Assembly: GCA_003599885.1 (NCBI GenBank)
Contig: QZKW01000082.1
Coordinates: 62,001 to 126,000 of the forward strand
DNA: 64,000 nt
Source: Desulfobacteraceae bacterium
GTDB taxonomy: Bacteria > Desulfobacterota > Desulfobacteria > Desulfobacterales > Desulfosalsimonadaceae
Reading direction: 5' to 3'
Numbering within the stretch: position 1 is the stretch's first letter; every line of letters starts with the position of its first letter. The translations under genes and the position numbers were made by a program. The notes below the pieces were generated by a model, which was not told the DNA's origin, did no database searches, and saw nothing but the letters and a program-made list of their open reading frames with translations. Below, in pieces: positions 44,003-54,510 of this stretch.

Positions 44003-44713
44003 GTGGTAAAAATAAGCGAATTTTTTTCTAAACTATCGCGGTTGATAATCCGGTTCGCGTTCACCTTGTTTTTAATTTCAGTGTCCTCGGTGTTCCTTCT
44101 GAGATTCATTCCACCGGTTACCAGCGCGTTTATGGTTGGCAAATACTGCGGCGGGCTATTCTCTTCAGATGACAGGGCATCCATCAGATACCATTGGGTG
44201 GACTGGAAAAATATTTCCCAGCACATGGCGCTGGCGGCTGTTGCGGCTGAAGATCAGAAATTTCCGGAACATTTTGGATTTGATTTTAAGTCCATGGTTG
44301 AAGCCCTGAAAGAAAGGGAGGATGGCGGAAGCCTGAGGGGCGCCAGCACGATCACCCAGCAGGTGGCCAAGAATCTGTTCCTTTGGAAAGGAAGGAATTT
44401 TATCCGGAAGGGGCTTGAAGCGTACTTTACCGTGTTGATAGAGGTCCTGTGGCCGAAGCGCCGGATTCTGGAAGTCTATCTGAACGTTGCGGAATTCGGT
44501 GATGGCATATACGGCGTGGAAGCAGCTTCAAAAAAGTTCTTTCATAAGCCTCCGTCAAGACTCACAAGAAGAGAATCAGCCCTTTTAGCAGCAGTTCTCC
44601 CTAATCCGATACGGCTCAAGGCGGCGGTGCCATCCGCCTATGTAATACAAAGGGCGCAAAGAATAGAAAGGCAGATGAGAAATCTCGGGTCATCCTATTT
44701 AAAAGGAATTTGA
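44003..44713 (+). CDS. mtgA: Monofunctional peptidoglycan glycosyltransferase
   Basis: 236 residues, GT51 family, polymerising lipid II in the periplasm. One N-terminal membrane anchor (about 12-35), then catalytic motif 1 EDQKFPEHFGFD with the essential Glu, GASTITQQVAKNLFL, RRILEVYLNVAEFG and LLAAVLPNP. Normal length for MtgA, without transpeptidase domain. Starts at a GTG with weak ribosome site. Confidence 0.92.
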   Translation: MVKISEFFSKLSRLIIRFAFTLFLISVSSVFLLRFIPPVTSAFMVGKYCGGLFSSDDRASIRYHWVDWKNISQHMALAAVAAEDQKFPEHFGFDFKSMVEALKEREDGGSLRGASTITQQVAKNLFLWKGRNFIRKGLEAYFTVLIEVLWPKRRILEVYLNVAEFGDGIYGVEAASKKFFHKPPSRLTRRESALLAAVLPNPIRLKAAVPSAYVIQRAQRIERQMRNLGSSYLKGI

Positions 44714-44864: not shown

Positions 44865-46316
44865 TTAGTTTTTCAGGGTCTGAATAATATTTTCTTTTGA
44901 ATCCATGATGGTTACTTCGATGGCGACACCGCCGTCCAGGCGGTGTGTGGCGCAGGAAATTCATGGGTCGTAGGCGCGCACCGCCATTTCCACCTTATTC
45001 AGTATCCCTTCGTCCGCCACGCCGTTTTTGATTAGGGCCCGTGCCGCCTGATCCACGCTCATGTTGATGGGCCCCAGGTTGTGGGTGGTGCCCACGATCA
45101 TGTTGGCCCGGGTGATGAGGCCGTTTTCGTCTGTTGAGTAATCATGGATAAGGGTGCCGCGCGGGGCTTCCACACATCCGACCCCTCTTCCGGCGCGGGG
45201 CTCCACTTTGGCCCGGACATCGGGATTCGTGATTTCCGGGTCTTCCAGGAGTTCAATGGCATGTTCGCAGGCATAGACTTCCTCGATGAGCCGCGCATAG
45301 TGATAGAGAAGGGTGGCCTGGGCGGGCCGTCCGAACAGGGAGCGGAATTCCTCCAGTTCCGACTGGGCCCGGGGGGTTGCCATTTTGTCGGCCACATTGA
45401 TGCGGGCCAGGGTATTGGACCGGTAGATGCCTTTGGGCTGGTCCAGGTTCAGCGAAAATCCTTCCCCCCAGCTCTTGGCGTAGGGAAATTTGCCGTAAGA
45501 CCAGGGTTCGACGTGCTCTCCGAGATAATCGGTATAGTCCTGGACGTCAAAATCCGTATAGGTTCCGTCGGGTTTCATGAGCCGGATATCACCGTCATAG
45601 AGGTTCAGCGCCCCCTGTTTGTCCACGGTGCCGATAAACCCGGTTTTAATGACCCCCAGTATTTTAATGGTATCGAGATATTTGGGAAACACCTGGGTTT
45701 TGGCAAACTCAATGGTGAACAGGGCGAAATCCAGAATTTCCCGCATGTCTGCGAGCATCCATTTTCTTTCTTCCTCGGTCATGGGTTTGGAAAACCCGCC
45801 GACCACGCCGGCCACCGGATGAATGGCTTTGCCGGCGAATTTTTCAATAATCATCTTGGCCTTCTGGCGCATGGTGACGACTTTTTTGGCTAAGGCAGGA
45901 TTGGCCTTGGCCACGCCGATGACATTGCGCACCGCATAATCCGCATCCGGGCCGATGACAAAGTCGGCTGCTGCCAGAAAAAAGAAATGCAGGAGTTTGT
46001 CCTCAGCCTGGGCGATGGTCTGGACCAGTTCGCGGAGTTTGTGGCCGGTTGGCGGAGGCGTCACGCCAAAACACCGGTCTACGGCCTTGTTGGACGCCAG
46101 GTGATGATGCCAGGGACAGATGCCGCAGATCCGGGTGACGATTCTCGGCAGTTCTTCAGCGGGTTTGCCTTCCACAAATTTTTCAAACCCTCGGATCGAC
46201 TGGAAATGGACCTTGGTGTCCGATACGTTGCCGTCATCATCCAGTTGGATGGCGATGGACGCATGGCCTTCGATCCGGGTGATGGGGGATATGTTGATGA
46301 TTCGCGCTTGGGTCAT
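44865..46316 (-). CDS. mvhA: [NiFeSe] hydrogenase large subunit MvhA, selenoprotein
   Basis: H2-activating subunit of an Mvh-type soluble hydrogenase. N-terminal nickel ligands are C64 and C67 (RICGICPWHHH). After AYDP an in-frame UGA (44961-44963) stands where the first Cys of the second CxxC is expected, and translation continues ISCATHRLDGGVAIEVTIMD to TAA at 44865: a perfect C-terminus with U452, C455, and His458 as the maturation cleavage site. Full length 483 residues. A hairpin at 44926-44946 serves as SECIS. AAGGAG ribosome site. Last gene of the operon. Confidence 0.95.
44926..44946 (-). promoter_or_regulatory. SECIS element of mvhA
   Basis: Starts 14 bases after the UGA: 8-bp stem ACACCGCC/GGCGGTGT with loop TGGAC (minus strand). 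It is inside the coding region, as bacterial SECIS elements are, with a G in the second loop position. Confidence 0.88.
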
Positions 46317-46375
46317 TGGGGATATCTCCTTATTATGTCCGTATTAAATCCGTGCCGATTTGCTTTTGTGCTGGT

Positions 46376-47302
46376 TTATTTCCGTGCGGGACGCAGCAGA
46401 TGATGGGCCCCGGAAAATCTGAGCATGGACTTGGTTTCCGGAAAGCTTCCGATGTCGATGCCGTTGGACGCCAGGGCGTTCAGCATATCGAGCCGCTGAT
46501 TCCCGTCCGGCAGCACCGGGCCGGAACAGCCCCGGCAGGGCACCCGGGCCGAGATACACCGGGGCGTCACCCCGTCCCCTCCGCAACCGGCCCGGGTCAC
46601 GGGCCCCATGCACAACATGCCCTGTTCCAGAATGCACCGCATTTTGTCAAGCGGATCTCCAGGGCTGTTGATATGGGGCGCCTGAAGAAAGCGTCGCAGT
46701 TGTTTCAGATCGCCCTTGCCCTCCCGAATGGTGGGGCAGGTGTCGCAAACGCTTTTATCCCGGAGGTTGGGGGCGCGGCCTTCAAGGAATGCCACCAGAG
46801 CCTCGAATACCTGGTCCGGATGGGGCGGACATCCGGGCAGATGGATATCCACTTTGATTTTTTCATCCAGGGCGTAACACCGGTCAAGCAGGGCAGGCAG
46901 GCCATCCGATGGGCGCTCGGTTGTTTTGTCGGTGGTTTCAGTGGAATAATATCGGTCCAGAATTTCATCATTCGTGTAGGAGTTGGCCAGGGCCGGGATG
47001 CCGCCGTGGGTGGCGCAGGTGCCTAATGCAATAATGGCCTTGCATTTTTTTCGCATTTCCAGGGCCACTTCCAGGTGCTCCGCATTGCGGATGCCGCCGG
47101 AGAGAATGCCCACAGCCGCTACCGGAATAGCAATATGCTTGCCGTCTCCCTTCTGGCCGAGATACTTGTGGTCCATGAGAACCGGAATGTGAACGAATTC
47201 GACCAGTTCCAGAACGGTCAGCAGCCTTTCCCCCATATCCACGATGGCAATTTCACATCCTGAACATGAATTTAACCAATCACTTGCAACTTTTGCCGGC
47301 AT
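46376..47302 (-). CDS. mvhG: Hydrogenase small subunit MvhG
   Basis: 308 residues, iron-sulfur electron relay subunit of the Mvh hydrogenase. Cys ligands for three clusters are in SCSGCEIAI, LGTCATHGG, LPGCPPHPD, and the C-terminal CMGPVTRAGCG...PCRGCSGP. No Tat signal, so the enzyme is cytoplasmic. The start has GAGAGGAAAG upstream. It lies between the FrhB-like gene and mvhA. Confidence 0.95.
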   Translation of the reverse strand: MPAKVASDWLNSCSGCEIAIVDMGERLLTVLELVEFVHIPVLMDHKYLGQKGDGKHIAIPVAAVGILSGGIRNAEHLEVALEMRKKCKAIIALGTCATHGGIPALANSYTNDEILDRYYSTETTDKTTERPSDGLPALLDRCYALDEKIKVDIHLPGCPPHPDQVFEALVAFLEGRAPNLRDKSVCDTCPTIREGKGDLKQLRRFLQAPHINSPGDPLDKMRCILEQGMLCMGPVTRAGCGGDGVTPRCISARVPCRGCSGPVLPDGNQRLDMLNALASNGIDIGSFPETKSMLRFSGAHHLLRPARK

Positions 47303-47340
47303 AAGTCTTTCCTCTCCATATGTTGACAGCCGACAGTCGG

Positions 47341-48456
47341 CTATCTTTTAACGTTGACAGACACTTTTCCCAGCCCCAGACGATTCCTGTCGGCGGTTTC
47401 TCTTTTTTTGACAGACCACTCCCTGACTGTGGAAAGGGCGTCCGTGGCAAAATTCGGGTGTTGATCCGGCGGGTATTCTTCGAGGGACGTATCCATGGCA
47501 TCCGCATAGATCGCCCGCCCCAGAGGGGTTCGCGTGACCAGCGTGGTCCAGCCTTCTTCCGCGCCGATGCCGCCAAAGGAAATATCTGCAAATTCCGCCG
47601 AATAGTCGGAACAGTAATTGCAGGCATACCGCTTCATAAAATCCAGATCCGCAATGGGAATGGTCCGCATGTCGCCATTTTTCAAATGGACCATGAAGGT
47701 TTCCTTGATATTGAGTTTTTTCACGTCCTCCCAGTTAAACTGATGATCAAGGGCCAGTTTTTGTTTCTGCTCATCTCCAAAGACAAAATTGCCGGCGCAA
47801 AACAGACCAAGGCAATATTTAATGGCGTCGGACGGAACAATGCCTAAAACTTCCATCCGGCGGTACGCCTTGATCTGGCAGGGGGTTCCCACCAGCGCAA
47901 CCCGGCGGAGCCCTTTTTTCATCATGGGCGCGAATTCCTCGATGGAGGAATAGGTGACGTATTTTTCGCTCATGTTTTTCATGCCGTGAGAGGTGTCAAA
48001 ATAGAATCCGGCGGCCTCGCTGATTTCAGAGCGGGTCACCGCAAGGCAGGGCCGGCGCTGAAAAGGCCCCGTCGGTTTCGTGACAATGGCCCCGTCAATG
48101 CGGCCGGTGTCAAACAGATGAAGAAGCAGGGCGGTGACCACCCCGCCGTCGGTGGCTTTGCTGCGGATTTCCGGATTTTTGGCCCGGGCTACGCTGGCTT
48201 CAATGACCCGTCCGCAGGGAGCGCTCCACGCGGCTTTTCGCTTGGTTTCCTCTTCCAGTTCGTCAATCTCAGGGCAAATGGAATAACACAACCCGCATTC
48301 AATGCATTTTTCCATGTCTTTATAATGGGGTTTCCCGTCGTCGTCCAGCTCCAGAGCCCCGTAATTGACAGCGGTGCAGAACGTGACGCAGCCGCCGCAC
48401 CGATGGCACAGGCCCGGTTTCTGGACTTCCTGAACCAGGTTGAAAAAAGTTTCCAT
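47341..48456 (-). CDS. F420 hydrogenase/dehydrogenase beta-subunit family protein (FrhB-like)
   Basis: 371 residues, FAD and iron-sulfur protein. Two N-terminal ferredoxin motifs (CHRCGGCVTFC...CIECGLCYSICP), then the FrhB-type domain (KATDGGVVTALL, RVALVGTPCQIKAYRR, CLGLFCAGNF, CNYCSDYSAEFADIS). AGGAGG ribosome site; start at 48456. It lies between mvhD and mvhG. It could link the Mvh-Hdr complex to F420, NAD(P)H or another acceptor; the family name does not prove F420 use here. Confidence 0.9.
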   Translation of the reverse strand: METFFNLVQEVQKPGLCHRCGGCVTFCTAVNYGALELDDDGKPHYKDMEKCIECGLCYSICPEIDELEEETKRKAAWSAPCGRVIEASVARAKNPEIRSKATDGGVVTALLLHLFDTGRIDGAIVTKPTGPFQRRPCLAVTRSEISEAAGFYFDTSHGMKNMSEKYVTYSSIEEFAPMMKKGLRRVALVGTPCQIKAYRRMEVLGIVPSDAIKYCLGLFCAGNFVFGDEQKQKLALDHQFNWEDVKKLNIKETFMVHLKNGDMRTIPIADLDFMKRYACNYCSDYSAEFADISFGGIGAEEGWTTLVTRTPLGRAIYADAMDTSLEEYPPDQHPNFATDALSTVREWSVKKRETADRNRLGLGKVSVNVKR

Positions 48457-48533
48457 AGTTCCTCCTGTGGTCGAAGACCATTGATTTTGAAGGCAGGTTA
48501 AGCTTCTGTCAATCCACCCGCTTCCCCTTGCTT

Positions 48534-48965
48534 TTATGCCGCTGCGGCACGTTCGGACACGATTGTATTGGGGCCCAGGGCCTTGATTGTTTCGGTAAAC
48601 CGGGTGATGAGTTCGGCAAACCGGGGCGCTTCGGCTGATGAAACCCATTCAATGGCAAACCGTCGGGTGTCGATGCCGGATTCCTCCAGAACAATATGGA
48701 TGGCTGCAGATCTCGCCAGTGCTTTTTCATTACCTTCCAGGTAATGGCATTCGCCGATGTGTCACCCCATGACCATCACGCCGTCAGCGCCTTTGGTCAG
48801 GGCTTCCACCACCAGTTCCGGATGGACCATCCCCGAGCACATCACACGGATGGCGCGCATATTCGGCGGATACTGGATTCGGGAGATGCCGGCCAGATCG
48901 CCGCCGGCATAGGCGCACCAGTTGCACAGAAAACCAATAATCTTGGGTTCAAACGGTTCGGACAT
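48534..48965 (-). CDS. mvhD: Hydrogenase/Hdr linker subunit MvhD, selenoprotein
   Basis: 143 residues with Sec at position 68. The frame from 48965 reaches an in-frame UGA (48762-48764) in GADGVMVMG-U-HIGECHYLEGN, where MvhD/VhuD has Cys or Sec, and continues for 75 more family-typical residues (RRFAIEWVSSAEAPRFAELI) to TAA at 48534. MvhD carries a [2Fe-2S] cluster and passes electrons from the hydrogenase to HdrA. AAGGAG ribosome site. SECIS hairpin at 48728-48746. Confidence 0.94.
48728..48746 (-). promoter_or_regulatory. SECIS element of mvhD
   Basis: Starts 15 bases after the UGA: 7-bp stem CATTACC/GGTAATG with loop TGGAA (minus strand). Nearly the same loop and spacing as in mvhA. Confidence 0.87.
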
Positions 48966-49070
48966 GGTTTGTTCTCCTTATTATACAGGCTGTAGGCTGA
49001 AGTCTCTTATTTTAAAAATCAATTGCATCATTCTTCTGACTTCTGGATTCTGTCTTCTGAATCCTGCCCC

Positions 49071-52000
49071 TTATCCAATCAAATCCAGGGCCGCATAGAC
49101 CTGGGCCCGCAACTGTTCGGTTGTGAATCCATGGACCATCACCCCGCGTTTCGGGCAGGTGGCGGCGCATAAGCCGCATCCTTTGCACAGGGCCTTGTCG
49201 GTGCTGATTTTTTTGGCGGTATGGCCGTTGTCCGAATGTTGTGTCAGTGTAATGGCCCGGTAGGGACAGACATCCAGGCAAAGGGCGCAGCCATCGCAAT
49301 GGTCGGTGACAAAGGACTTGATGGCGTCAAGCTGCATCACGTTTTGTGAAAGAATGACATTGGCGCGGGCAACCGCTGCCTTGGCCTGGGAAATGGATTC
49401 ATCAATGGGTTTGGGATAGGTGCAGAGACCGGCGATAAACAGGCCGTCCACCGCCATGTCCACGGGCCGCAGTTTGGGATGGGCCTCATTCAGGAAACCG
49501 TCCGCATTCACCGCGCATTTGTATAATTCAACGAGTTCCCTGGTTTCATTGGGAACGATGGCGGCGGCCAGTATCAGATAGTCCGTGGTGAGTTCCAGCG
49601 GCATGCCGAGGATCGGATCCGTCACCTTGACCGTCAGGGCTCCGTCTGTTTTGGCCACCAATGGCGGATTTTCCAGATCATACCGGATGAAAACGACACC
49701 CCGGCGTCTGGCTTCGGTGTATAGATCTTCCCGTGTGCCGTAGGTGCGCATATCCCTGTAAAGAACATACACATTCATGGACGGATTTAACGTTTTGAGG
49801 GTAATGGCGTTTTGTACCGAATGGGTGCAGCAGACCCGGCTGCAATAGGGCCGCCGGGTATTTCGCGATCCCACGCACTGGATGAATACGGCGCTTCCGG
49901 CGGATTGAACGCGGTCCTTTCGTTCTGCCAGTTCCTTTTCAAATTCGAGGTGGGTCATGATGCGAGCATCTTCGCCGTACATGAATTCCGTAGGCTCGGA
50001 TTCCCGTGCGCCGGTGGCAAGAACCGCGGCGCCGTATTGTATTTCACGGGATTCGTTTCCGATTTGAATGGAACTGGTAAAATTGCCCACCGTGCCGGTG
50101 GATGACGTCAGACGGGCGTTTTTAAGGATTTCGATCCGTTCATGGCTTTCCACCTTCTGGATCAACTGTTCAAGCATGGGCCGGATTTTTTCATTTTTGG
50201 CGGTTGTGGAAAGGTGCCAGGCATTGCCGCCAAGGGCGTCGGTTTTTTCCAACAGCATGGTTTCATATCCCTGGTCCGCCAGTCCCAGAGCCGCATTCAT
50301 GCCTGCAACGCCGCCGCCGATCACCAGCGCCTTTTGGACAACATTCACCTGGAGTTCCTGAATCGGAAAAGCCAGGCCCACCTTGGCGGCCGCCATCCGG
50401 ACCTGGTCCATGGCCTTGGCTGTCGCCTTTTCCGGCTGTTTTTGATGGACCCAGGAATTGTGGTTCCGGATATTGGCCATTTCCACCAGATAACCATTGA
50501 GCCCCGCTTCTTTCAAGGTATCCTGAAACAGGGGTTCATGGGTCCGGGGGGTGCATGCGGCAATGACGATACGGTTAAGATTCTGCTCCCCGATGACTTT
50601 TGCCAGCAGTTCCTGGGTGTCTGTGGAGCAGGCGAACATATTGTTTTCGGCGTGAACAACATAAGGCAGTGTTTTGGCGTAATCCACCACTGCCGCCACA
50701 TCCACCACACCCGCGATATTCGATCCGCAGGAACAGACAAACACGCCGATTCTTGGGGGCTGGCCGGAAAGGTCTTTTTCAGCCGGGTATTTTTTTTCTC
50801 TGGTCAGTGTGCCTTTGGCGGAAATCAGGGCTTTGGACGCTTCGGCGCTTGCGGCGGACGCAACCGCAACAGAGCTGGGAATATTCATCGGGCCCTTGAA
50901 ACAGCCGCTGACAAAGATTCCGTCTCTTGAACTGGATACCGGGGTAAAGCTGCCGGTTTTTGCAAAATTGTATGCGGTGAGTTCAATGCCTGTTTTTTGA
51001 GACAGGTCCAGGGCGTCCGCAGATGCTTCCATGCCCACGGAAAGAACCGCCATGTCGAAATCTTCTTTTAGCTGACGCCCGTCTTCGGTGACGTATCTCA
51101 TGGTTACCCCGGTGTTGCCAGGGCCGGGCTCGATGGTATGGGGTCGTGCGCGGACAAACCTGATATCGTGTTCTTTCGCGTAATTGTAATACAGCTCAAA
51201 TTCTTTTCCGTGGCTGCGGATGTCCATATAAAACAGGGTCTGCCGCCCGCCATCCGGAAGATGCGCGGCGGTGATCAGGGCCTGCTTCATGGCATACATG
51301 CAGCAGACGCTGGAGCAGTATCCGTTTTCGCAGCGGTTGGTGCTTCTGGAGCCGACGCACTGAATCCAGGCGATGTTTTTGGGTTCTTTGTGATCAGAAG
51401 GCTTTTCCAGGTGCCCGTGAAACGGGCCGCCGGGGGACAGCATCCGCTCATATTCAAGGCCGGTCACCACATCCGGTATTTTCCCATATCCGTAGAAATC
51501 AATCCCTGCCGGGTCAAAGGGTTTGTAGCCGGGAGAGAGGATCAGAGACCCAACGGAAAAGGTCTGGATTTCCTCTTTATCATCAAAGTTGATGGCGCCG
51601 GTGGGACAGAATTTTTCGCAGGCCCGGCATTTCCCCTTGGTGGTAAAAAGGCAGGTTTTCGGATCAATGGCATATTTCAGCGGAACCGTCTGGCCATACT
51701 GGATATAGGCGGCCTTTCGTTTGGAGATGCCCATGTTGAATTCATCATCCACTTTTTTTGGGCATTTTTGTGAACAGATACCGCAGGCAATGCATTTGTC
51801 CATGTCTATAAAACGCGGGTTCTTTTTGACCGTGACGGAAAATGCGCCCGCCTGCCCCGTAACCGCAACCACTTCTGATAATGTCAGTATTTCAATGTTT
51901 AAGTGCCGACCGCACTCCACCAGTTTTGGCGAGATAATTCACATGGCGCAGTCGTTGGTGGGGAAGGTTTTGTCCAGTCTTGCCATTCCGCCGCCAATGC

Positions 52001-52385
52001 CGGGGCCTTTTTCAAGCAGATAAACATAGTATCCTGAATCTGCAAGATCCAGTGACGCCTGAATACCGGCGATTCCGCCGCCGACAACCATAACCGATCC
52101 AACAGGTTTGTCTAACATGCGCACCTCTTTTTGAATTATGGGGGTTTCGGGTTTTGCTGTTTTGCCCGGGCCGGGAGTTTTGGCGGCATCCGCCATCAGT
52201 TCAAGAATCATATTCTTTGCAACGCCCTTGGATTCAAGGAAACGGGTAAACGATTCCCGCCCGATCCCATATCTTTTGCCGACCATTGGCGTTGCGTCAA
52301 GTTCGCCATTTTTGATCCAGTTCCGAACCGTATTCCGGTGAATGCCCAGCATCTTGGCGAGTTTTCCCACCCGGATTTCAATCAT
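49071..52385 (-). CDS. hdrA: HTH-HdrA fusion, selenoprotein, double-flavin electron-bifurcating subunit
   Basis: 1104 residues read through an in-frame UGA at 51939-51941 (U149). Residues 1-65 form an excisionase/MerR-like helix-turn-helix ([19 protein letters not shown]). HdrA proper starts at about 90: FAD motif [19 protein letters not shown], then [18 protein letters not shown], where methanococcal HdrA has Sec. Ferredoxin motifs [12 protein letters not shown] and CRACEKFCP lie at 198-261; a second Rossmann FAD motif lies at about 683 ([20 protein letters not shown]) and ferredoxin motifs at about 1026-1070. A strong AAGGAG precedes 52385; an internal ATG at 52118 with GAGGTG could give HdrA without HTH. 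Confidence 0.93.
51902..51916 (-). promoter_or_regulatory. SECIS element of hdrA (candidate)
   Basis: Starts 22 bases after the UGA: stem AGTGC/GCACT with loop GGTCG (minus strand), resembling the GGUCU loop of the E. coli fdhF SECIS. Less stable than the other two. Confidence 0.7.
52118..52130 (-). promoter_or_regulatory. Internal ribosome site and alternative hdrA start
   Basis: On the minus strand, AGAGGTGCGCATG gives a good internal start at 52118 before [12 protein letters not shown]. It would yield a conventional HdrA of 1015 residues with Sec at 60 alongside the HTH fusion. Confidence 0.5.
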
Positions 52386-52879
52386 GCTGTCTCCTTATTT
52401 ATAATTCTCATCACGCGTTGGCACATATTCGGCACAGCCGCCATCACCGGCCCGGAAAGTCCGGGATTGATTTCCTCTGGGATGTGGGCGATCTGGACCA
52501 CCAGCACGCGAACGTCTACATTTGTCAGGTCCTTCAGTTCCTTCAGCATGTTGGTGGTGGGGAACTGGTGCAGGGAGAAATCGCTGGTTTTTTTTGGGTC
52601 GATATTGTCTACATCAATTTCAAAAATATCGCCGGGAAGCTTCCCGTCATGTTCTGCGGCATCAATAATAATGATCTGCCGGGGCTTTTCTTCAGACAGC
52701 AGAATGTCAAACAGCGCATCCCGGATACCGGTTCCGGCATCCAGACACAAAACATGTTCCGGGATCTCATGGTGTTCTTGGAGATGTTCAATTACTTCGG
52801 GGCCGAATCCGTCATCGCCGAACAGTGGATTGCCGCACCCGAAAACAAGGCAGGGTGTTGAATGGCTGCTTTGGGTCAT
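52382..52879 (-). CDS. Hydrogenase maturation endopeptidase
   Basis: 165 residues, HyaD/HycI/FrcD-type protease removing the C-terminal tail of the hydrogenase large subunit after His in the CATH motif. The nickel-sensing acidic residues are in [16 protein letters not shown] and CLDAGTG; the C-terminal part contains [12 protein letters not shown]. The first gene of the Mvh-Hdr operon, with the stop overlapping the start of HTH-HdrA. Its presence agrees with the recovered MvhA tail. AAAGGAAAG ribosome site. Confidence 0.9.
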
Positions 52880-52898: not shown

Positions 52899-52955
52899 TG
52901 TTCATGTGCGGTTTGTGCGGTTTGTGCTTATTGTGCAGTTTGTGCAATATGAACA
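52899..52955. repeat. Five tandem 9-base repeats in the hydrogenase operon leader
   Basis: TGTGC starts at 52905, 52914, 52923, 52932 and 52941, exactly every nine bases (consensus TTTGTGCNN). The array is bracketed by TGTTCAT (52899-52905) and its inverse ATGAACA (52949-52955). It lies 20-75 bases before the protease start. On the minus strand it can be read as a short His/Lys-rich leader peptide (HKLHNKHKPHKPH) ending in a stop that overlaps the protease ATG. Confidence 0.75.
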
Positions 52956-53175
52956 CTGTTTTTTTAAATAAACACAGTCCATAGATTGTGTCAATAAGAA
53001 ATCGGGTATCGTTTGAAAATGGCGATGACAATGGTGGCGGCATCCTGAAAAACCAAACTTCTGGGGCAAGGCGCTTCGCCCTGAACGTTAAAGCTTGAAG
53101 TTCAGGTTTCAGGTTGATATGAAGCTGTAGTTTGTGACTTGATAAGAATTATCAAAATGGAATTATGTTTACCCG

Positions 53176-54510
53176 ATGATTATTAAAACCATTTTCAGGG
53201 AATTGCCATCAGCGGCGTCTTTTGGGTGGAACAGCATGAAAAGAGTCCGGCAGACCGCCGTCATTCTGGGCGGAATCGGGCTCGGCTGGGCGCTGGGCGA
53301 CCGGATTCCAACGCCGGTATTGATGCGAAGGGCTTTTGAACGCCTGGGCGCAACCTATATTAAAATCGGTCAATTGATCGCCAGTTCGCCCTCCCTGTTC
53401 CCCGAAGAATATGTGATAGAGTTTCAAAGGTGCCTGGATCAGACCGAGCCGGTGGCGTTCAAAAACATGGAAAAAATTCTGGAAGAAGAGCTGGGGAAAA
53501 ATTACATTCCTGAGATTTTCAGCCATGTCAATCAAACCCCCCTGGCTTCCGCCTCCATTGCCCAGGTGTATGCCGCCCGCCTGGCCAGCGGAGAAGATGT
53601 CGTGATTAAAATTCAGCGGCCCGGCGTGGAAACCATTCTGACAACAGACCTGAATTCCCTTTATTTTGCCGCCGTGACCCTTGAAAAGCTGATTCCCCGT
53701 TTGCAGCACGCCTCCCTGGCCGGCGTCCTGTCTGAAATCCGCCGAACGGTTTTAGAAGAATGCGATTTCAACAAAGAAGCGGAAAATATTGAAATTTTTT
53801 CCCGGTTTTTAGAGCTTAACGGAAACAAAGAGGTGGTGACGCCCAAGGTGTATCCTCATGCTTCATCAAGGCGCGTGCTGACCATGGAACGCTTCTATGG
53901 CGTTGCAGTTCGTAAACAATTGTTAAATTCCACCGAGAATCTTTACCGGATTCTGGGCGCAGCGTTCCAAACCTGGATGGAAAGCATTACCGGATGTGAA
54001 TTGTTCCATGCAGACCTTCATGCCGGCAATCTGATGATTTTAGATGACGGCCGTGTCGGTTTTATTGACTTCGGCATTGTGGGGCGGATATCGGAAAAAA
54101 CACAGGAAGGGGTCCAGTCGTTGATCAAGGCCATGATGATGATGGACTATAAAACCATGGCCGAGTCCATGCTCGTCATCGGCATGACCCGGAAAAAAGT
54201 GAATACGGCCCGGCTGGCGAAAGACCTGGAGGATTTCTATCTCTCCGTTGAATCCTCAATACCTGATGAAGGCTTGCCTGTAGGCATCACCGAAATGTCC
54301 GAACCGGACCACACCCTTCTGGAAATCGTTCGTATCGCCGAAACGCATGGCATCCGGTTTCCGCGTGAATTCACCCTGCTGCTGAAGCAGTTCCTGTATT
54401 TTGACAGTTACCGGGATATTCTGTTTGATATGGCGGGAGCCAATATGGAGGGGCTGATGGAAGACGTCATCCTGAAACTGGAAGGATTCGATCCATCGCT
54501 GCTGCAATAA
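53176..54510 (+). CDS. ABC1/UbiB-family atypical kinase
   Basis: 444 residues. The UbiB/ABC1 kinase-like motifs are present: LGATYIKIGQLIASSPSLFP (KxGQ), PLASASIAQVYAARLASGED, VVIKIQRPG, FHADLHAGNLMILDDGRVGFIDFG. It lacks the long C-terminal membrane helices of E. coli UbiB. In anaerobes such proteins assist isoprenoid-quinone or lipid metabolism. Isolated gene, divergent from the hydrogenase operon. Confidence 0.9.
   Translation: MIIKTIFRELPSAASFGWNSMKRVRQTAVILGGIGLGWALGDRIPTPVLMRRAFERLGATYIKIGQLIASSPSLFPEEYVIEFQRCLDQTEPVAFKNMEKILEEELGKNYIPEIFSHVNQTPLASASIAQVYAARLASGEDVVIKIQRPGVETILTTDLNSLYFAAVTLEKLIPRLQHASLAGVLSEIRRTVLEECDFNKEAENIEIFSRFLELNGNKEVVTPKVYPHASSRRVLTMERFYGVAVRKQLLNSTENLYRILGAAFQTWMESITGCELFHADLHAGNLMILDDGRVGFIDFGIVGRISEKTQEGVQSLIKAMMMMDYKTMAESMLVIGMTRKKVNTARLAKDLEDFYLSVESSIPDEGLPVGITEMSEPDHTLLEIVRIAETHGIRFPREFTLLLKQFLYFDSYRDILFDMAGANMEGLMEDVILKLEGFDPSLLQ

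Follow-up and report, generated by a model that had tools for sequence, protein, structure and literature searches.

The window analysed here, 64,000 nucleotides of a Desulfobacteraceae contig (QZKW01000082.1, positions 62,001 to 126,000), carries a hydrogenase operon of six genes that runs on the minus strand from 52879 to 44865 in the order hycI, hdrA, mvhD, frhB-like, mvhG and mvhA (Table 1; positions are those of the window). A sequence-only reading of this DNA had proposed that mvhA, mvhD and hdrA encode selenoproteins, with UGA codons at 44961, 48762 and 51939 on the cysteine (Cys, C) or selenocysteine (Sec, U) positions of known motifs. The codons do read TGA on the minus strand, one in frame per gene at the Cys/Sec position of its family, and translation through them continues to the full-length proteins of Table 1. 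Ordinary gene calling breaks all three genes, as that reading had stated: with translation table 11, mvhA is truncated to 451 aa, hdrA falls into two open reading frames (ORFs) of 148 and 949 aa, and mvhD yields no ORF reaching 80 aa, the minimum of the list used. The proposal of three selenoproteins in one Mvh-Hdr operon is supported by the sel machinery of the genome, by alignment columns holding U or C, and by hairpins after the UGA codons. Two features go beyond the earlier description: the operon has six genes, including hycI and the FrhB-like gene, and HdrA has an N-terminal domain predicted to bind DNA.

A purine stretch resembling a Shine-Dalgarno sequence lies upstream of the ATG in each of the six genes, and the TGA stop codon of hycI overlaps the start of hdrA. 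Both sets of [NiFeSe] large-subunit metal ligands are present in read-through MvhA, the N-terminal CxxC (RICGIC) and the C-terminal UxxC (DPUISCATH). HdrA finds its best NCBIfam match in HdrA2, at 919 bits under a cut-off of 1100, and neither hdrB nor hdrC lies within the operon. The neighbouring ORFs at 44003-44713 and 53176-54510 are on the plus strand, opposite to the operon; by our reading of their sequences, rather than by family search, they appear transglycosylase-like and ABC1-kinase-like, respectively.

Table 1. Coordinates of the operon and its sequence features in the window.
Feature	Position	Strand	Evidence or remark
Possible promoter, TTGACA-17-TTATTT, upstream of array	52966..52994	-	Weak, inferred
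Operator-like array, five GCACA cores at exact 9 bp spacing	52905..52945	-	
hycI/frhD-type hydrogenase maturation protease	52382..52879	-	Pfam HycI 9e-22; NCBIfam hydrog_prot above cut-off
hdrA, doubled HdrA-like flavoprotein, 1104 aa, Sec at residue 149	49071..52385	-	Pfam flavin and Fe-S domains
N-terminal winged helix-turn-helix (excisionase/BldC-like) domain of HdrA	52206..52385	-	Pfam HTH_17, NCBIfam excise, AF2, Foldseek
UGA (Sec) codon of hdrA, NDCAM-U-IISPK	51939..51941	-	
SECIS-like hairpin of hdrA, GAGUGC-GGUCG-GCACUU	51901..51917	-	
mvhD, 143 aa, Sec at residue 68	48534..48965	-	Pfam FlpD 2e-51
UGA (Sec) codon of mvhD, MVMG-U-HIGEC	48762..48764	-	
SECIS-like hairpin of mvhD, AUUACC-NGGAN-GGUAAU	48729..48745	-	
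FrhB-like flavin/Fe-S subunit, 371 aa, without Sec	47341..48456	-	Pfam FrhB_FdhB_C 1e-35; NCBIfam frhB-related, below cut-off
mvhG, hydrogenase small subunit	46376..47302	-	Pfam Oxidored_q6; VhuG-related, below cut-off
mvhA, hydrogenase large subunit, 483 aa, Sec at residue 452	44865..46316	-	Pfam NiFeSe_Hases 3e-37; VhuA/VhuU-related, below cut-off
UGA (Sec) codon of mvhA, DP-U-ISCATH	44961..44963	-	
SECIS-like hairpin of mvhA, CCGCC-UGGAC-GGCGG	44929..44943	-	

The N-terminal domain of HdrA and the repeats before hycI

Residues 7-53 of HdrA match the Pfam helix-turn-helix (HTH) family HTH_17 at 8.5e-9, and the N-terminus matches the NCBIfam excisionase family excise at 1.7e-9, above the cut-off. 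An AlphaFold (AF2) model of the domain reached a pLDDT of 90, and the top Foldseek matches of the domain were Pukovnik Xis, RacA, GlnR and BldC, while its best sequence match in the PDB was Xis (4e-4). We assign the N-terminus as a MerR-like winged HTH of the BldC/Xis type on the strength of these profile and model matches. The HTH is in frame with the rest of HdrA and is very probably translated, because AAGGAG stands directly 5′ of the ATG and comparison with four relatives gives a pN/pS of 0.24-0.38 (the HdrA values for L019, L020 and L022 were disregarded, as that comparison was ungapped; L and G numbers are our labels for loci and genomes). The motif HRNT-x-x-NWI in the region of the recognition helix is invariant in nine aligned rows and was found in 36 of 36 further loci. 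Some Sec operons lack the HTH entirely (L021, L022 and L023), and in L192 it forms a separate small ORF (L192:4233-4430) that stops at a TGA before the hdrA start and resembles free BldC. The same head was found in seven other loci (L030, L034, L036, L042, L067, L071 and L081), six of them titled Desulfobulbus or Desulfocapsaceae and one, L036, Proteobacteria. Reading L067 and L030 in full placed it on a GlpC-like Fe-S protein 5′ of hdrA, an arrangement that recurs in L034, L071 and L081.

Upstream of hycI, five GCACA-N4 repeats follow one another at exact 9-bp spacing (52905-52945) and end 25 nt 5′ of the hycI start codon. Such 9-bp direct repeats were first noticed by eye when promoter regions were compared; no exact 10-mer was common to four or more of the 11 promoter regions, and their inverted repeats differed from locus to locus. 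The window holds three overlapping exact three-unit matches and one match with one mismatch, where shuffles lead us to expect 0.02. Across the 4.5-Mb genome, the array is the only exact three-unit site, and six sites have one mismatch, one of them inside this same hdrA. In 203 records (1.82 Mb, some of them overlapping), exact three-unit sites occurred only before the hycI of operons with an HTH-bearing HdrA, namely in the window, L018, L019, L020, L186 and L188 and in the copies L184 and L187. It is important to note that the repeat pattern was derived from these same loci, and these counts are a discovery and not a test.

In the window, TTGACA stands 47 nt before the start of the array, and a consensus promoter scan reported no minus-strand promoter. 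TTGACA lies 38-57 nt upstream of the array in the window and in L186, L018, L188, L263 and L265. This would place the array on the transcription start or shortly past it, a position that fits repression. Array units flank TTGACA in L244, L250, L253, L254, L255 and L257. Nine further loci (L243, L247, L248, L249, L251, L256, L259, L260 and L262) have instead TGGCAC or TGGCAT followed by N5-TTG upstream of the array, which we take to resemble a sigma-54 promoter element.

The co-occurrence of HTH and array was tested on further loci. HdrA residues 1-200 served as the query against 389 genomes of the order, and up to eight of the best candidates per genome were scored. Among the matches listed, there were 91 in 82 genomes, 44 with the HTH (35 with a TGA, including the split case L192 of G053, and nine without) and 47 lacking it. 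The upstream DNA was tested for 36 loci with the HTH (27 of the Sec type and nine of the Cys type, the other eight having already been seen) and for 24 of the 47 loci without. A strict two-unit site was present on the coding strand of 19/27 HTH-Sec loci, 0/9 HTH-Cys loci and 1/24 loci without HTH, and on the opposite strand of 8/36 and 0/24 loci with and without HTH. The spacing of pairs in the 27 HTH-Sec loci was 9 bp in 19 and 18 bp in five, with every other spacing from 5 to 31 found at most once, and permuted units gave 0 or 1. When only Sec operons with an upstream hycI were compared, 19/27 with the HTH had the site as opposed to 1/13 distinct operons without (p = 4e-4; L277 was not counted, being the contig of L023), and without L021-L023, which had been seen at discovery, the comparison was 19/27 to 1/10 (p = 0.002).

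A matrix built from the six discovery loci only, with a pass defined as a score above the best of the locus's shuffled set, was passed by 26/27 HTH-Sec loci spanning 12 family-level groups, by 2/9 HTH-Cys loci (L270 and L276) and by 3/24 loci without HTH (L279 strongly, L291 and L297 barely). The failing 27th locus, L245, has only 340 nt upstream and its promoter is missing. Discovery loci outside the matrix scored 18.5 (L192) and 24.9 (L193), with L021-L023 at 4.2 or below. In all seven loci of the GlpC-like group, the HTH is preceded by a strict pair of GCAYA units spaced 9 bp apart. In 13 genomes that hold HTH-Sec loci of the kind tested above, the 17-nt form of the site had three exact matches, all before Hdr operons; there were also 23 matches with one mismatch, of which 10 stood before these operons, three genomes had none, and the backward control gave five.

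We consider it likely, from this co-occurrence and the predicted fold, that the HTH binds the array. The explanation that competes best with this is that HdrA keeps the HTH as a relic, or for structure only, and that another regulator of hydrogenase operons binds the array. It would account for the scarcity of the array before HTH-Cys genes (2/9 by score) and for the array of L279 (G132:C202:105015), which is strong and perfect and lies upstream of a hycI-hdrA operon with no HTH on its own HdrA. Against it, the array in Sec operons that start with hycI tracks the HTH and not the type of operon (19/27 versus 1/13), HRNT-x-x-NWI is kept in every one of the 36 loci, and the strict pair recurs in 7/7 loci where the head sits on the GlpC-like protein. 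As for L279, its genome, G132, has an HTH-HdrA at another locus (L263), which could bind the site in trans and may control it in this manner. We therefore regard a leftover or structural HTH as unlikely, though it keeps some weight.

Several results count against binding of the array by the HTH and should be read alongside the above. In addition to L279, 8/27 HTH-Sec loci fail the strict test, seven of which pass the matrix, and the HTH-Cys loci fail the strict test in 9/9 and the matrix in 7/9 cases. The shuffle control consisted of a single shuffle of single bases per locus, and the p-values overstate independence because the operons are related. For the fold itself, all Foldseek matches had E above 0.04, and BldC was a weak sequence match at E 0.28-0.46.

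The HTH-Cys HdrA genes (L266-L270 and L273-L276) lack hycI in 7/9 cases. A de novo search before them for another repeat at 8-12 bp spacing found none shared by more than 3/9. GCAAA repeats at 9 bp lie upstream of L276 and are perhaps a diverged site.

Conservation and decoding of the three UGA codons

All three sites are U in each of the eight distinct operons in which every site is readable (the window, L018, L019, L023, L186, L188, L192 and L193, with L184 and L187 excluded as copies of L019 and L018), and the HdrA site is U in 11 operons of this Sec type where readable. Searching 79 genomes with MvhA gave 21 matches that divide by identity: at 78% or more, 11/11 (the window included) have one TGA, and at 44% or less, 10/10 have none. 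Operons of the Desulfobulbus type (L030, L034, L071 and L081) have U in MvhA only and C in MvhD and HdrA. As the sequence-only reading had predicted, U and C columns correspond one-to-one in alignments with Cys homologues, among them the HdrA and MvhD Cys paralogues of the same genome (L098). The genome has 11 MvhD-type genes, four of which, including that of the window, hold one TGA. The operon is patchy, with a match at 78% identity or more in one of 10 other genomes of the genus, several of which are incomplete. Downstream of its UGA, mvhD is under purifying selection (pN/pS 0.15-0.33 against nine relatives).

The Sec machinery on which the proposal depended was found in the genome, with SelA (609 bits), SelB (369 bits), SelD (365 bits) and tRNA-Sec (74.7 bits) all over the cut-off and G73 as the discriminator of the main tRNA-Sec. 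The selD gene (L014, G000:C2:71353-72273) itself has one in-frame TGA, and SelD is probably a selenoprotein here. The search for hairpins resembling a selenocysteine insertion sequence (SECIS) likewise bore the proposal out: one lies 3′ of each UGA with its loop about 25-35 nt downstream, and the MvhD and HdrA cores were in no Cys homologue examined. Counting only genes that match the search pattern, and omitting L184, L187 and L152-L183 as copies or duplicates, the 18-nt MvhD core is present in 23/25 UGA genes and 0/45 Cys genes, though codons could vary, and the HdrA core in 10/11 and 0/47. The mean energy of the best 19-nt hairpin in U as opposed to C genes was −9.9 versus −5.4 kcal/mol for MvhA, −6.5 versus −3.8 for MvhD and −9.7 versus −4.6 for HdrA. 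Synonymous recodings of the window's genes folded as well in 0.7% (MvhA), 0.7% (MvhD) and 3.3% (HdrA) of cases.

The same genome (G000) has a second tRNA-Sec-like gene on contig C28. It has a UCA anticodon, U73 as its discriminator and a T-stem with a bulged A, and a second selB, whose product is 635 aa long, comes directly after it. A selC*-type tRNA-Cys with its own SelB* has been described for Desulfobacterales (Mukai 2017, as reviewed in PMC7609411). All of these features, from the anticodon and discriminator to the bulged A and the selB copy directly downstream, are shared with that system, and by them the second pair is of the selC*-type tRNA-Cys(UCA) and SelB* kind. It differs in having G1:C72 where A1:U72 is reported for Desulfobacterales; a similar tRNA in the genome of L018 (L117) has A1:U72. 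The pair (L002 / L098:9518-11555) is flanked by two genes that look rhodanese-like by eye and lies 5.6 kb after the Cys-type HdrA-MvhD pair. No CysRS was recognised by eye among the ORFs inspected with it, and no family search was run for it. Further second UCA tRNAs were found in G024 (59.1 bits) and G036 (53.4 bits; discriminators not read), and in a Desulfobulbus metagenome-assembled genome (MAG; L115, G009:C21) another tRNA-Sec-like gene, also the second of its genome, scored 65.6 bits and has a UCA anticodon and an odd 3′ end.

This second system opens the possibility that the three UGAs are read as cysteine, and its presence in the genome, together with the report of such a pair in Desulfobacterales (PMC7609411), speaks for it. 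With that said, G000 also encodes SelA, SelD and a canonical SelB, and MvhA, MvhD and HdrA appear among the Sec families listed in PMC13188914. The same UGA operon also occurs where a single tRNA-Sec match was over the cut-off, namely in G086 (97% complete, with three UGAs in L193) and in G002 (L019), which has one SelB at E 1e-40 or better; the latter is a 2.5-Mb MAG, so absence there is no proof. The ordinary route is therefore enough in those genomes, and the selC*/selB* route is probably not used at these codons, which leaves decoding as cysteine very improbable.

Three sets of observations weigh against Sec decoding. Some relatives' hairpins are no better than their recodings, 36% and 29% of which fold as well for MvhA of L018 and L023 and 10-24% for MvhD of L019, L020 and L023. 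The selection test on the MvhA tail is weak, with 26 codons and pN/pS from 0.18 to 0.95. Finally, G006 (L023), G053 (L192) and G073 (L190) have UGA operon genes without a tRNA-Sec match, the best match of G073 being a tRNA-Trp; assembly gaps, a match hidden beyond the best-scored candidates, or a divergent tRNA are possible reasons, and G006 does encode SelB. Taking all of this together, we are close to certain, from the machinery, hairpins and alignments, that the three UGAs are decoded as Sec.

General reassignment of UGA was considered and rejected, as UGA is still a stop in the operon because hycI ends in TGA, and tRNA-Sec and SelB are present. That the UGAs are sequencing errors or signs of gene decay, as the broken gene calls might suggest, is refuted and virtually inconceivable, because the same UGAs are conserved with their hairpins in independent genomes.

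Proposed regulation and comparison with known systems

We propose that the operon encodes a cytoplasmic [NiFeSe] hydrogenase-HdrA complex with Sec in MvhA, MvhD and HdrA, and that the ordinary SelA/SelB/SelD/tRNA-Sec machinery inserts this Sec at each UGA under the guidance of the hairpin that follows. From what is known of these families, electrons from H2 would most likely pass from MvhA through MvhG and MvhD to the flavins of HdrA, where they may be bifurcated, one part going to ferredoxin and the other to a second acceptor, perhaps by way of the FrhB-like subunit. The array before hycI would most likely be the operator of the HdrA HTH, so that an electron-transfer subunit would regulate its own operon in the manner of PutA, most likely by repression, the presumed signal being either H2 or the complex's redox state.

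As a whole, a triple-Sec hydrogenase-HdrA operon whose HdrA likely regulates it through the 9-bp array is the explanation we find probable. Its parts carry different weight, and we see the chances as evenly balanced that repression is tied to redox or H2 state. We lean slightly towards a wider version, in which HdrA would itself be a transcription regulator in many Sec-hydrogenase operons of the Desulfobacterales, its BldC-like head multimerising on the array at the transcription start and the occupancy or redox state of the complex setting expression. On this wider reading, the enzyme has probably taken over a BldC-like regulator of its own operon, because the module is also found on the GlpC-like subunit of Desulfobulbus-type operons and, in one relative, free. 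If the proposal is true, the state of a hydrogenase-Hdr complex would be coupled directly to the transcription of its genes without a separate sensor, and the claim can be checked using a single short DNA probe and a single small domain of the protein.

Trigger enzymes of the PutA type, which control their own operon through a DNA-binding domain of their own, are a parallel in principle, with another fold and another chemistry, and in the HdrA case the regulation is predicted. A closer likeness in subject is HdrR of Methanosarcina barkeri (PMC11218639), also a regulator of an hdr operon (hdrBCA); going by its description, it is set apart as a separate regulator of an archaeon.

The selenoproteins themselves have precedents. 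Sec-containing hdrA-frhD-frhG-frhA operons were reported in Deltaproteobacteria in 2006 (PMC1794560), Sec-containing Mvh/Hdr families were reviewed in 2026 (PMC13188914), and in 2009 Desulfobacterium autotrophicum HRM2 was described with a Sec-containing MvhA2DG alongside Sec-HdrA1 (PMC2702500). The window's operon shares with the 2006 kind the Sec in HdrA, FrhD/MvhD and FrhA/MvhA, the order hdrA-mvhD-mvhG-mvhA and the doubled HdrA. It differs in having an frhB-like gene between mvhD and mvhG, hycI in first place and the HTH on HdrA, and in lacking the fifth gene of the bacterial version, a Sec-containing GlpC: no GlpC match was found within it. A GlpC/HdrD-like gene with one in-frame TGA lies between mvhD and frhB in L019, L020, L023, L185, L190 and L192 and was not found there in the window, L018, L186, L188, L191 or L193. 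HRM2, of the same broad group, likewise clusters a Sec Mvh hydrogenase with Sec-HdrA; compared by wording only, the main text of that paper contains neither 'helix-turn-helix' nor 'excisionase'. The triple-Sec operon thus belongs to a published kind and is not new, and it is a further case of an operon of this sort being broken up by ordinary gene calling.

No description of an HTH on HdrA or of the array was found in the open-licence literature, judged mostly by titles and the openings of abstracts. The nearest system for the DNA-binding head is BldC of Streptomyces (PMC5859096), one of the top Foldseek matches and a small MerR-like winged HTH, whose protomers are arranged head to tail on direct repeats, each bound to 9 bp. 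BldC is a free protein of 68 residues, unlike the head described here, which is fused to a flavin/Fe-S electron-transfer protein and free only in L192, and the core of the site also differs, being GCAYA here. What is new is the combination of a predicted DNA-binding head on a core electron-transfer subunit with a matching array that recurs across 12 family-level groups.

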